Assembly (NCBI RefSeq): GCF_038561955.2
Contig: NZ_CP138333.2
Span: 1,798,001 to 1,862,000 of the forward strand
From: Salinicoccus sp. Bachu38
Lineage (GTDB): Bacteria > Bacillota > Bacilli > Staphylococcales > Salinicoccaceae
Direction of reading: 5' to 3'
Length of the DNA: 64,000 nucleotides
Of the stretch, positions 24,934-27,357 are shown in pieces. The translations under genes were made by a program, and so were the position numbers. The notes below the pieces were generated by a model. It was not told the DNA's origin. It did no database searches and saw nothing but the letters and a program-made list of their open reading frames with translations. Numbering within the stretch: position 1 is the first letter of the stretch; each line of letters opens with the position of its first letter.

Positions 24934-25000
24934 TTAATTAGAACACTCCTTAATTTGTATAGGAAGTATTATACTGAAAATTCCGATATTAATCCACTAT

Positions 25001-25024
25001 AAAACCCGGTTCCGAAGAACCGGG
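25001..25024 (-). terminator. Terminator of the Nudix gene
   Basis: Minus strand: CCCGGTTC, loop TTCG, GAACCGGG, then TTTT. Confidence 0.88.
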
Positions 25025-25032
25025 CCATATCT

Positions 25033-25437
25033 CTATTTTGCAGGACTGCCATTTTTGATCAGTTCGATGGCCGGAATATCGGCGGGTGCCCAGTCCAGTG
25101 CTTCGATATCCCCGCGCGACAGCCATTTCATATCGATGTGTTCAAGCAGCTGGATTTCACCCGACAGCTGTTTCGCATAATATGTCGTCAGTTCAACCGT
25201 GCCGAAATCATATTCATGCACTGTCGTGGTGATCCGTTGCCCCACTTCTATTTCACAGTCCATCTCTTCCATCAGCTCGCGTTCCAACGCTTCGCCCGGC
25301 GCCTCCCCCTCTTCGATCTTGCCTCCGGGGAATTCCCACATCAGGGCCAGGTTCTTGCCTTCCGGCCTCTGTGCACACAATATCTCATCCTTTTCGTTCA
25401 CTATGACAGCGCCAACGACTCTGATATATTTCTTCAT
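25033..25437 (-). CDS. Nudix hydrolase, MutT-like (8-oxo-dGTP diphosphatase type)
   Basis: It has 134 residues. The Nudix box is complete: Gly39-x5-Glu45-x7-Arg53-Glu54-x2-Glu57-Glu58. The N-terminal VVGAVIVNEKDEILCAQRP and the W-x-F-P-G-G-K segment are those of MutT proteins that clean oxidised nucleotides from the pool. The exact substrate cannot be fixed by sequence; CTP pyrophosphohydrolases of the NudG type look similar. ATG 25437 has GGAGG five bases ahead; the earlier in-frame ATG (25449) overlaps that site. Confidence 0.86.
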   Translation of the reverse strand: MKKYIRVVGAVIVNEKDEILCAQRPEGKNLALMWEFPGGKIEEGEAPGEALERELMEEMDCEIEVGQRITTTVHEYDFGTVELTTYYAKQLSGEIQLLEHIDMKWLSRGDIEALDWAPADIPAIELIKNGSPAK

Positions 25438-25513
25438 GATATCCTCCAAAGATTTTATAATACGCTCATTATAACAAATAAACTGCGCGGGTTCCCCCTT
25501 CGCAGTCGTATTT

Positions 25514-25528
25514 CATATACAGTATATG
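25514..25528. promoter_or_regulatory. Perfect 7-1-7 palindrome upstream of the Nudix gene
   Basis: CATATAC-A-GTATATG lies about 75 bp upstream of the Nudix start and beyond the terminator of the peptide gene. It looks like an operator for a dimeric regulator; none is identified. Confidence 0.35.
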
Positions 25529-25572
25529 GTATTATTATCTTGTCCTAAAAACGCCCCACCTTAAATTTACAC

Positions 25573-25629
25573 AAAAAAAGACCCTCTGCCCAAAATTATT
25601 AAGAGGTCGGGTGCATTCGGGGCAGAGGG
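25573..25629 (-). terminator. Large-loop terminator of the signal-peptide gene
   Basis: Minus strand: CCCTCTGCCC (25629-25620), a 28-base loop, GGGCAGAGGG (25591-25582), then TCTTTTTTT. It lies 44 bp after the stop codon, giving the short mRNA a structured 3' end. Confidence 0.75.
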
Positions 25630-25672
25630 AATCCAATTAAGGGTAAGGAAAAAATGAACTTACTAGAAGTTG

Positions 25673-25852
25673 CTAATAAACATTGATAGGGGCTGGCCTG
25701 CCATCAGGAAGATAACCGGAACCTTTACCAAAAGTTCCAACTTCTTCATAGCCACTCTTTACAACACTCGCTTCTGCTGTAGGAGTATTGACTGCCGAGA
25801 AGGAGCCTAATAGAATAGTACTCACAACTACAGCGCTGATAATCTTTTTCAT
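25673..25852 (-). CDS. Secreted pre-peptide, candidate RRNPP signalling peptide
   Basis: It has 59 residues. MKK, a hydrophobic core (residues 4-20) and AEA (26-28) form a Sec signal peptide with predicted cleavage before Ser29, leaving a 31-residue tail that ends GRPAPINVY. No cysteines, and no lantibiotic or AgrD features. The ORF extends upstream to 25939, but ATG 25852 has AAGGTGGTG ahead of it and begins the signal peptide. It is divergent from an HTH-TPR regulator, 109 bp apart, with a promoter TTGATA-N17-CATACT in the gap. This matches papR- and nprX-type genes, whose C-terminal 5-8 residues are imported and sense cell density. The peptide itself matches nothing I know. Confidence 0.75.
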   Translation of the reverse strand: MKKIISAVVVSTILLGSFSAVNTPTAEASVVKSGYEEVGTFGKGSGYLPDGRPAPINVY

Positions 25853-25882
25853 GCCATCACCACCTTCAATGTTTATATTTAT

Positions 25883-25936
25883 AGTATGCACCATTCTAAA
25901 TATTCTATCAATATTCACATATGCAAAAATTGTGAA
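25883..25936. promoter_or_regulatory. Peptide-gene promoter and candidate regulator operator
   Basis: Minus-strand promoter TTGATA (25911-25906), 17 bp, CATACT (25888-25883). Over the -35 and spacer lie two tandem 11-mers, TCTAAATATTC (25895-25905) and TATCAATATTC (25906-25916), 8 of 11 identical. An inverted repeat TTCACA-N11-TGTGAA (25914-25936) overlaps the second. These are the best candidates for the site of the HTH-TPR regulator. No convincing hexamer pair for the regulator itself was found. Confidence 0.5.
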
Positions 25937-25961
25937 CATTTACTTATTCGGGAGGATACTG

Positions 25962-26843
25962 ATGAGATATCACGAACGCTTCAAGGAAATCCGACAGCAA
26001 AAAGGTCTGACCCATAAGGAGTTATCAGAAGGCATATGCGGAATGACGACGATCTACCGGTTCGAACGGGGAGATACTGCGATTGCTGCAGAAGTGCTGT
26101 ACAAGCTGTGCCAACGTCTCAAAGTCAGCATGCAGACCCTGTTCATAGATGAGGAATCGGAGTATGCGCTGATCGACTACTACCTCGACAAACTGCGGGA
26201 CTATGTCTACTTCAAGCATCCGGAGATGCTCAAGCTGACGCTTCAGGATGCAAAGAAAACGATCAATGAAAGACCCGGTTTCGATCTGAAGTACCGCAAC
26301 TATGACCGGCTCTACCGCGTGTATACCGCAATCGATCTGAGGAATGACGACAAATATGCACAGGCTGAAAAAATCCTCCTTGAGCTGCTGGAGGAAACCA
26401 AACACGTCCAGTCTATAGAACTCGAAATCGTCAATACACTCGGCGATCTGTATATCGTCATGGACCGGGACGAGGACGCCCTCGCCCTCTATCATAAGCA
26501 CAGGAACCGGATTCTCGACTTTCCACGTGTGAATGGTTTCGAGAGGTATATGATCAAGCAGCTCCATTACGGCTATGCAACATGCCTATACAATAACTTT
26601 TCATATGTCCAGGCGTTGGAGGTGTGCTACAAGCTGCTCATCAGAATCCAGGAGAACAACTCCATATTCTACCTGGGCAAGGCGCACCATCTGATGTCTC
26701 TGATCTATGTTGCACTGAAAGACCCCGAACCGGCAAAAGAGCACCTTGCCAAATGCGAAGCTGCCTTCCTGCTTGAAGATCTCGACGACAGGATGGCATA
26801 TCATATACAGATCGCCAAAGAGGAAATAAAAGTGCTGGAGTAG
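25962..26843 (+). CDS. HTH-TPR transcriptional regulator, PlcR/NprR-like (RRNPP family)
   Basis: It has 293 residues, close to PlcR (285). Residues ~5-63 are an XRE-type helix-turn-helix (FKEIRQQKGLTHKELSEGICGMTTIYRFERGD). The rest is all-helical with TPR-like repeats, e.g. ELEIVNTLGDLYIVMDRDEDALALYHKH (~165-192) and KAHHLMSLIYVALKDPEPAKEHLAKCEAAF near the end. In RRNPP regulators this domain binds a re-imported peptide and switches DNA binding or dimer shape. ATG 25962 has GGAGG six bases upstream; the longer frame from 25788 runs across the peptide-gene promoter. An Rgg-type protein is the nearest alternative, but the TPR pattern favours PlcR/NprR. Confidence 0.82.
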   Translation: MRYHERFKEIRQQKGLTHKELSEGICGMTTIYRFERGDTAIAAEVLYKLCQRLKVSMQTLFIDEESEYALIDYYLDKLRDYVYFKHPEMLKLTLQDAKKTINERPGFDLKYRNYDRLYRVYTAIDLRNDDKYAQAEKILLELLEETKHVQSIELEIVNTLGDLYIVMDRDEDALALYHKHRNRILDFPRVNGFERYMIKQLHYGYATCLYNNFSYVQALEVCYKLLIRIQENNSIFYLGKAHHLMSLIYVALKDPEPAKEHLAKCEAAFLLEDLDDRMAYHIQIAKEEIKVLE

Positions 26844-26863
26844 ACACCTACTCCAGCACTTTT
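26828..26863. terminator. Bidirectional terminator after the HTH-TPR regulator
   Basis: AAAAGTGCTGGAGTAG, loop ACAC, CTACTCCAGCACTTTT: a perfect 16-bp stem that includes the regulator stop codon and touches the stop of the convergent acetyltransferase gene. Confidence 0.9.
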
Positions 26864-27357
26864 CATATGGATCGTTTGAACCTGAGCGAAGTCTGCACTT
26901 CGCCCGCTCCCGTCCTCCGAGATTTCTGTTCGACATACTCGAATCCCCTGGCTTCGTAGAACGGCTGTCCGTACACATTACCTTCCTGTACAGACACCCA
27001 CTGTTCCACCAACCCTTTATTCCTGTGGTCATCCGTCAGGCGATGAAGAAGCATTCCGCCGATGCCCATGTATCTATAGTGTGCTTCGACATAAAAGACA
27101 TATATTTCTCCGCTGCGGACAGATGTCCTGCCGCCACCGATTACGCCGACAACTGCACCATCCAGCTCGGCAACATAACTGTAATGGCCTCTGCCGATAT
27201 CCTGCATGACCTTTTTTTCGTTATACCAGAAAGCAACGGTCTCATGCTGATGGCTTTCAGACATCAGGCCCTCCACCGTCTGCTTCCAGCCGAGGCGGCA
27301 GATCCGGGCGATAGCCGGTGCATCCCGTGTTTTGGGTCTGCGGATACTAGGTTCCAT
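26863..27357 (-). CDS. GNAT family N-acetyltransferase
   Basis: It has 164 residues. The GNAT acetyl-CoA motif A is seen as IYVFYVEAHYRYMGIGGMLLHRL (R/Q-x-x-G-x-G/A loop as YRYMGIG), followed by motif B with NVYGQPFYEARGFEYVE. The substrate is not predictable. The GTG at 27366 overlaps the preceding stop codon (GTGA) and is an alternative start; ATG 27357 has GGGGGAG upstream. It is last in a run after the iron alcohol dehydrogenase and the I9-like lipoprotein genes, and ends at a terminator shared with the HTH-TPR regulator. Confidence 0.83.
   Translation of the reverse strand: MEPSIRRPKTRDAPAIARICRLGWKQTVEGLMSESHQHETVAFWYNEKKVMQDIGRGHYSYVAELDGAVVGVIGGGRTSVRSGEIYVFYVEAHYRYMGIGGMLLHRLTDDHRNKGLVEQWVSVQEGNVYGQPFYEARGFEYVEQKSRRTGAGEVQTSLRFKRSI

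Follow-up and report, generated by a model that had tools for sequence, protein, structure and literature searches.

The window analyzed here, a stretch of 64,000 nucleotides (nt) from the genome of Salinicoccus sp. Bachu38 (contig NZ_CP138333.2, positions 1,798,001 to 1,862,000), contains two divergent genes, one encoding a small protein of secreted type and the other a regulator with a helix-turn-helix (HTH) and a TPR-like domain. A preliminary description, made from the sequence alone, had read them as a peptide signaling pair of the RRNPP type. This reading was retained overall; the description had, however, stopped at the open reading frame (ORF) of the peptide and overlooked the conserved and structured 3' untranslated region (3'UTR) of the peptide messenger RNA (mRNA). 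The features of the locus are as follows, with positions counted within the window:

25962..26843, + strand: HTH-TPR regulator of 293 amino acids, probable intracellular peptide receptor, with orthologues in 12/12 genus genomes
25912..25938, no strand: operator-like dyad TGTTCACA-N11-TGTGAATA, perfect arms within 25914-25936 (mean pairwise identity 0.963 over 12 loci)
25883..25911, - strand: peptide promoter-like site TTGATA, 17 nt, CATACT, with 9/12 consensus matches and a position conserved in the 12-locus alignment
25673..25852, - strand: pre-pro-peptide ORF of 59 amino acids, secreted type, at the same position in 12/12 genus genomes
25769..25852, - strand: Sec-type signal peptide, codons 1-28, AEA/S (by eye), with T25, E27, A28 and S29 invariant in 12/12
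25676..25714, - strand: conserved tail YLPDGRPAPINVY, codons 47-59, probable source of the mature signal (nucleotide identity)
25630..25672, - strand: conserved, mostly single-stranded 3'UTR segment (12-locus alignment)
25582..25629, - strand: terminator hairpin with covarying stem (folding, covariation)
25599..25614, - strand: invariant hairpin loop GCACCCGACCUCUUAA, 16 nt, C-rich, an identical string in 12/12 loci
25573..25579, - strand: U-run of the intrinsic terminator (sequence, folding)

The peptide ORF begins with an ATG at 25852 and its stop codon ends at 25673 on the - strand, while the regulator ORF runs from an ATG at 25962 to a stop codon ending at 26843; these coordinates bear out the divergence by 109 bp given in the preliminary description. 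A Shine-Dalgarno-like GAAGGTGGTGATGGCATG precedes the peptide ORF, whose product opens with a lysine-rich MKK start and a hydrophobic core, followed by the cleavage motif AEA/S after Ala28 and a remainder of 31 residues that terminates in GYLPDGRPAPINVY (GRPAPINVY). The 59-residue ORF described earlier was thus confirmed, and the signal peptide cut after Ala28 and the tail agree with our own judgment, the ribosome-binding site (RBS), signal peptide and cleavage site being calls made by eye with no predictor. A longer peptide of 88 amino acids, starting at an upstream ATG in the mechanical ORF list, was rejected, as the extension is promoter and operator DNA in the 12-locus alignment.

Across the same 12 loci, the residues M1 K2 K3, L14, T25, E27 A28 S29, V31, Y47, D50 G51 R52, P55 I56 and V58 Y59 of the peptide are invariant, and the middle part (residues 33-46) is variable and contains every indel. 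Nucleotide identity amounts to 0.827 in the tail including the stop codon versus 0.560 in the pro-region. Two types of tail are found, namely DGRPAPI(N/G/D)VY (7/12) and DGR(P/L)RPIDVY (5/12). At the sequence level, such conservation of start and tail around a variable middle is typical of a signal peptide that undergoes processing. No Pfam family matches the peptide, and all three NCBIfam matches fall under their cut-off, among them Phr_nterm, whose match covers residues 1-19 (E=0.051, 14.1 bits versus a cut-off of 25).

The regulator carries an XRE HTH at its N-terminus (HTH_3, E=1.3e-10, 41.5 bits, cut-off 23) and, in its C-terminal part, the TPR-type helical repeats that are expected of an RRNPP receptor. 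In a profile search most of its length (residues 6-244) matches PlcR, although weakly, and with E=0.096 the two are not close relatives in sequence. PlcR was not listed at E<=1 when the solved structures were searched with the single regulator sequence, and the virus contigs that were searched contained no relative of the regulator. Orthologues were sought in a set of 60 genomes, source genome included, and a full-length one was present in all 12 genus genomes, with 63-91% identity besides the window (62-91% in the alignment) and 91% in Salinicoccus luteus DSM 17002. For the remaining 10 genomes matching at E<=1e-6, the matches were at HTH level or had an identity of about 22-35%. When 157 genomes of the order were searched with a profile (E<=1e-15), the regulator was recovered in 12/157, all belonging to the genus, and in 0/145 of the others. 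A divergent small ORF of secreted type lies at the equivalent place in 12/12 loci, with start, cleavage motif and tail conserved. The comparison of related genomes that had been suggested as a check therefore found both ORFs together throughout the genus (12/12), and judged by this shared divergent position, their pairing exceeds chance.

Alignment of the 12 intergenic regions places the dyad TTCACA-N11-TGTGAA directly against the -35 box of the putative peptide promoter. At one locus (L012) the center of the dyad is altered and one arm reads TGTGGA, with the other arm bases kept. The promoter scan returned 4 sites versus 2.7 expected from shuffles and is weak taken alone. The extended dyad TGTTCACA-N11-TGTGRATA, a pattern derived from these same 12 sites (R covers the L012 arm base), occurs without mismatch exactly once per genome in 12/12 genomes and always at the peptide locus. 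Since no other mismatch-free copy exists, the receptor would directly control mainly the divergent promoter, and with it the peptide transcript, if the regulator binds the dyad, as we infer. The source genome contains one further exact match to the plain dyad, which lies within an ORF that begins like ribosomal protein L10 and was rejected as another operator. A dyad with one mismatch recurs in 11/12 genus genomes (in G000, locus L054, at C1:2617900-2617926, near the contig end), and these sites are probably DnaA boxes near the origin.

Downstream of the peptide stop codon, conservation rises instead of falling. Mean pairwise identity in the 3'UTR of the 12 loci reaches 0.916 over 25627-25672 and 0.931 over 25592-25614, compared to 0.696 for the peptide ORF, 0.605 for its third codon positions and 0.491 for the 59 nt past the terminator. 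The two 3'UTR segments hold 54 invariant positions out of 69, in contrast to 17 of 119 among third positions and post-terminator sites combined (Fisher p=1e-18, which is only a guide because the sites share a tree). By this measure, no other transcribed stretch compared at the locus is as conserved as the 3'UTR, which is also structured. The hairpin CCCUCUGCCC...GGGCAGAGGG and the U-run constitute an intrinsic terminator (-29.6 kcal/mol, z -3.5 for a 121-nt stretch), whose 16-nt loop is of a length that the terminator pattern scan disallows. The U-run lies on the peptide strand and the element therefore belongs to the peptide transcript, for which we estimate 305-311 nt in the 12 species, with the start placed according to the -10 box.

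Within the stem, 9/15 pairs are altered on both sides, 96.3% of the cells are paired, and 0/500 shuffles reach the covariation score; these values derive from 11 distinct rows of 12 in an alignment (A6) that was fitted to a model of four sequences (R1) and is biased towards structure. When the sequences were folded individually (67 nt), the stem appeared in 12/12, with different innermost pairs in L010, and in longer folds neighboring pairs shifted in L010 and L011. A covariance model (R2) with strict filters detected the element in 12/157 genomes of the order, all of the genus (E<=4.3e-15), and its matches elsewhere comprised ten non-genus genomes and a second match in G009 (E 0.185-0.992). 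BLASTN of the 3'UTR agreed with this distribution, giving E<=2.4e-28 in the 12 genus genomes out of 150 and E>=2.7e-4 elsewhere; the weak matches concern eight non-genus genomes as well as a second site in G003 (E 2.7e-4 to 0.0097). In Rfam, positions 25000-27000 gave 6 matches at E<=5; none reached its gathering score, and RNAIII was not one of them.

Readthrough or a second peptide encoded in the 3'UTR is unlikely, as a 1-nt deletion breaks the frame after the TAG in 2/12 loci (L012, L013) and the third codon positions there hardly vary. Conservation of the non-coding part as RNA exceeds what the ORF requires, as would be expected of a dual-function RNA. The loop itself contains an invariant five-codon frame, ATG CAC CCG ACC TCT TAA (25599-25616, - strand), without a Shine-Dalgarno sequence. 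On the opposite strand, a mini-ORF (AAGGGTAAGGAAAAAATG AAC TTA CTA) was rejected because its length is not conserved, and the + strand at 25639-25665 resembles a translation start, AAGGGTAAGGAAAAAATGAACTTACTA, followed by a frame whose length is likewise not conserved.

Divergent genes, conserved tail, operator-like dyad and a terminator whose stem covaries around an invariant loop occur all four together in 12/12 genomes. We consider it very likely that the pair performs signaling of the RRNPP type, a reading strongly supported by the co-conservation in 12/12 genomes, the conserved tail, the operator-like dyad and the weak full-length match to PlcR. We are also confident that the 3'UTR is under selection for a role as RNA that goes beyond termination. 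Its unpaired C/U-rich segments remain constant and its stem drifts, which is the expectation for a base-pairing seed, and we see about even chances that it base-pairs in trans. The step from a conserved RNA to a trans-acting effector is one that we infer. We regard as reasonably probable a genus-specific RRNPP-type signaling pair in which the signal mRNA also serves as a regulatory RNA, so that a cell-to-cell signal and a regulatory RNA may share a single transcript.

We posit the following course of events. The pre-peptide would be exported by Sec and cleaved by signal peptidase after Ala28, and a further protease would release a short C-terminal peptide from the conserved tail. After import by Opp, this peptide would be bound by the TPR domain of the regulator, and the complex would bind the dyad beside the -35 box and activate the peptide promoter in a positive feedback. 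Direct control by the receptor would then converge mainly on one transcript of ~305 nt, and the 3' end of this transcript, comprising the C/U-rich single strand and the loop ACCCGACCUCUU, both anti-Shine-Dalgarno-like, would pair with the translation starts of target mRNAs. In its fullest form, which we put forward tentatively and hold to be somewhat doubtful, the direct regulon of the receptor would essentially be its own pheromone mRNA, and the 3'UTR with its C-rich terminator loop would be the base-pairing effector, making the locus an independently evolved one-transcript counterpart of agr/RNAIII.

Several observations weigh against this interpretation. On the protein side, TPR_12 matches the regulator with E=4.2e-4, which is under the Pfam cut-off, and the other TPR matches are also below theirs. 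The structure prediction suggested in the preliminary description did return a match to the PlcR fold, but structural comparison scores generic TPR proteins as high as PlcR, and the AlphaFold2 (AF2) model, built from two sequences, is only of medium quality (predicted local distance difference test, pLDDT, 69.5). With this model, Foldseek gave no match at E<=0.001. Among the 50 matches listed by VIA-align, chains of Rap, NprR and PlcR rank amid generic TPR proteins; the absence of Rgg and ComR from these 50 is uninformative either way. On the DNA side, the one-mismatch dyad TCTTCACACGCTTCTATCGTGTGGATA recurs in G002, G003 (L060) and G011, with two-mismatch variants elsewhere, so that the regulon may be wider than the peptide transcript. 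Regarding the stem, one measure out of five, the count of further pair types, does not stand out from the shuffles (76/500).

The search for RNA targets is a further point on this side, as no conserved trans target was found in the 12 genomes and matches stayed near control level. The complement of the loop with G-U pairs tolerated, RRGRGGTYGGGTG (13 nt), occurs at this locus and only once more (in G009). Complements of 10 bases of the loop were found before an ATG 33 times, versus 24 in the reversed-pattern control, and those of the single strand 45 times, 12 being the locus itself (33 left), versus 28. Candidates were examined among 30 matches listed for the loop and 30 for the single strand. 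The start of a fatty-acid desaturase gene, matched by the loop in G000, G011 and G003, was dropped after its pairing energy ranged from -16.5 to -8.6 kcal/mol over the 12 species; 4/55 window starts reach -16.5 kcal/mol or lower, which puts this pairing within background. Matches of the single strand include the start of an ORF of 501 amino acids in G011, G003 and G002, and the start of an Nramp-like transporter gene in G006 and G010.

The lack of a conserved target also favors the most serious alternative, an ordinary RRNPP pair whose 3'UTR acts in cis only, through termination, mRNA stability or long-range pairing with its own translation start, and has no targets in trans. For termination and stability the stable terminator hairpin would be enough, and the simple duplex of the single strand with its own 5'UTR reaches -14.0 to -25.1 kcal/mol over the 12 species, compared to a mean of -14.9 for the 55 window starts. 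Termination, however, needs the stem, yet it is the stem that varies and the unpaired loop and single strand that are conserved. Masking of the own Shine-Dalgarno sequence by the 3'UTR was likewise unsupported, since folds of the full transcript left its exposure unchanged in 8/12 species, lower with the 3'UTR in 3 and higher in 1. We therefore judge a purely cis-acting element to be unlikely, though worth serious consideration. A leader or attenuator of the gene downstream of the peptide gene is far less probable. This gene, mutT (NUDIX), lies on the same strand and is next in 12/12 loci with the intrinsic terminator between the genes, but the 59 nt past the terminator are unconserved (0.491) and no Rfam family reaches the gathering score. 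Moreover, in 12/12 species the 5' stem arm pairs less strongly with its best upstream partner than with its own 3' arm, and the place of that partner is not shared (offsets 13-172, with five species at 143-152), leaving no competing pairing common to the species.

Two further alternatives concern the small ORF itself. Type I toxin-antitoxin systems of Firmicutes overlap at their 3' ends, and a 59-amino-acid membrane toxin, with a convergent antisense RNA reaching into the conserved 3' region, could explain the small ORF, its hydrophobic segment and the conserved 3' region. The hydrophobic segment is nevertheless signal-peptide-like, with a conserved A/V/T-x-A site and a hydrophilic conserved tail behind it, the + strand shows no promoter-like site at 25450-25672 (the scan began at 25450), and an HTH-TPR regulator is the partner in 12/12 genomes, which together render a toxin highly improbable. 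Hardly more credit is due to a bacteriocin or other secreted effector that is regulated by the HTH-TPR protein and is not its ligand. A secreted peptide beside any regulator could indeed be the target product. Against this, inspection by eye (with no family search) revealed no dedicated exporter, modification or immunity gene adjoining, the conserved portion is a short tail behind a variable pro-region, and at 4/10 of the distant relatives scanned, a short ORF that is signal-like but has an unrelated tail also adjoins the regulator.

Among the known systems, PlcR/PapR of the Bacillus cereus group (PDB 2qfc, 3u3w, 4fsc) resembles the Salinicoccus pair in the order of XRE HTH and TPR helices, in the length of about 290 amino acids and in the small exported pre-peptide encoded next door, besides the weak profile match and the fold match. 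The papR gene lies downstream of plcR and is co-directional, and the PlcR box reads TATGNAN4TNCATA. In Salinicoccus the layout is divergent and the dyad TTCACA-N11-TGTGAA stands in the place of this box, TATGCAAAAATTGTGA in the peptide promoter being, by eye, without the CATA half. The claim of a regulator of the same size and order as PlcR consequently stands for the order of domains and fails for the gene layout. The Salinicoccus pair further differs in its tail (DGRPxPIxVY, not ADLPFEF), in its single mismatch-free operator per genome and in the conserved structured 3'UTR on the peptide mRNA. In Rgg/SHP and ComR/ComS of streptococci, the receptor gene adjoins a short-peptide gene (shp is often divergent) and the receptor activates the peptide promoter. 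The peptides of these systems are short and hydrophobic, whereas here we found a Sec signal peptide, an A-x-A site and a hydrophilic tail rich in Pro and Arg; sequence searches of the solved structures with the regulator retrieved none named Rgg or ComR.

The two-gene concept is shared with the subfamilies predicted by RRNPP_detector, which reports 21 novel high-confidence ones and, in Staphylococcaceae, five candidate biosynthetic clusters (Bernard et al., 2023, PMC10075063). The main text of that paper contains neither "Salinicoccus" nor "small RNA" nor "untranslated"; its supplementary lists may include the pair. With this reservation, literature searches on Salinicoccus listed no described pair of this kind, in line with the earlier statement that none had been characterized in Salinicoccus-like staphylococci. 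In a survey of RRNPPA proteins, Staphylococcus accounts for <0.05% of the encoding genomes and Salinicoccus is not mentioned in the text available (PMC9765709), and the available text of the S. roseus genome paper names lsr, autoinducing peptides (AIPs) and autoinducer-2 (AI-2), but neither PlcR nor TPR (PMC10642018).

RNAIII of S. aureus is described as acting with C-rich hairpins against ribosome-binding sites, the last of these hairpins being the terminator (PMC8383071). As far as that source covers it, RNAIII and the transcript proposed here would have in common the quorum control, a small ORF and, towards the 3' end, a structured portion that bears C-rich hairpins. The ORF of RNAIII encodes delta-hemolysin and control is exerted by agr with AgrA (PMC8383071), whereas here the RNA would encode the signal. 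The Salinicoccus locus has no Rfam homology to RNAIII and does not belong to this family. We read the Salinicoccus transcript as a probable pheromone mRNA doubling as regulatory RNA, in an agr/RNAIII-like layout driven by a PlcR-like receptor. A small RNA with a secreted peptide of 33 amino acids, srn_9343 of S. aureus Newman, offers another likeness; it was proposed to be part of a toxin-antitoxin system, and "pheromone" and "quorum" are absent from the main text (PMC5496865). Among the titles and abstract openings listed for RRNPP, Rgg and PlcR/PapR in connection with small RNAs, dual function or 3'UTRs, none concerned a pheromone mRNA of this class with a regulatory 3'UTR. By our sequence tests, the pair is a genus-wide RRNPP-type system, and the structured, near-invariant 3'UTR is what is new. 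RRNPP systems are known as a receptor and a peptide, with the receptor regulating the response, and if our interpretation is true, the signal gene would here itself be the effector. This would provide a small and testable model of two genes, one operator and one loop in halophilic relatives of Staphylococcus, and it suggests inspecting the 3'UTR of further pheromone genes, a region that detectors based on ORFs do not cover.

More distant relatives of the regulator, at about 22-26% identity, are encoded by plasmids (Alkalihalophilus, Macrococcus, Enterococcus) and by other genomes of the order. A scan of ten such loci looked for short ORFs that combine an RBS with a hydrophobic start. L122 and L124 have a divergent pre-peptide candidate ahead of the regulator, L025 and L020 a co-directional one behind it, and the four tails are unrelated. 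No candidate short ORF was found by the scan in L015, L031 and L032, and the hydrophobic ORFs of L016, L030 and L123 were discarded, being unlike pre-peptides, inside other genes or far off. The distribution of the candidates suggests a wider class of receptor/pre-peptide pairs. In L124, on plasmid pBpOF4-01 of Alkalihalophilus pseudofirmus, the ORF (1121-1234, - strand) has 37 codons, an RBS, a signal-like start and the tail ...LTPLDLPYIHT; it is divergent from the regulator relative and near a gene for a thiazole/oxazole-modified microcin (TOMM) leader-peptide-binding protein, and is likely part of a receptor/pre-peptide pair. That of L122, on a plasmid of Macrococcus sp. 19Msa1099 (1282-1383, - strand), comprises 29 to 33 codons with a hydrophobic start and is divergent from the regulator relative. 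Those of L025 (1197-1322, - strand) and L020 (2333-2416, + strand, ending in GGGWPPIIW) are short secreted-looking ORFs behind related HTH-TPR regulators. One genome, G058, shows six matches to such regulators (loci L016, L025, L030, L031 and L032), perhaps as the result of an expansion.

The genes surrounding the Salinicoccus pair were named by eye with no family search. A GNAT acetyltransferase gene follows the regulator in 10/12 loci and an alcohol dehydrogenase gene is nearby in 12/12. In L012 and L013 the acetyltransferase gene is absent, and the alcohol dehydrogenase gene stands directly after the regulator.
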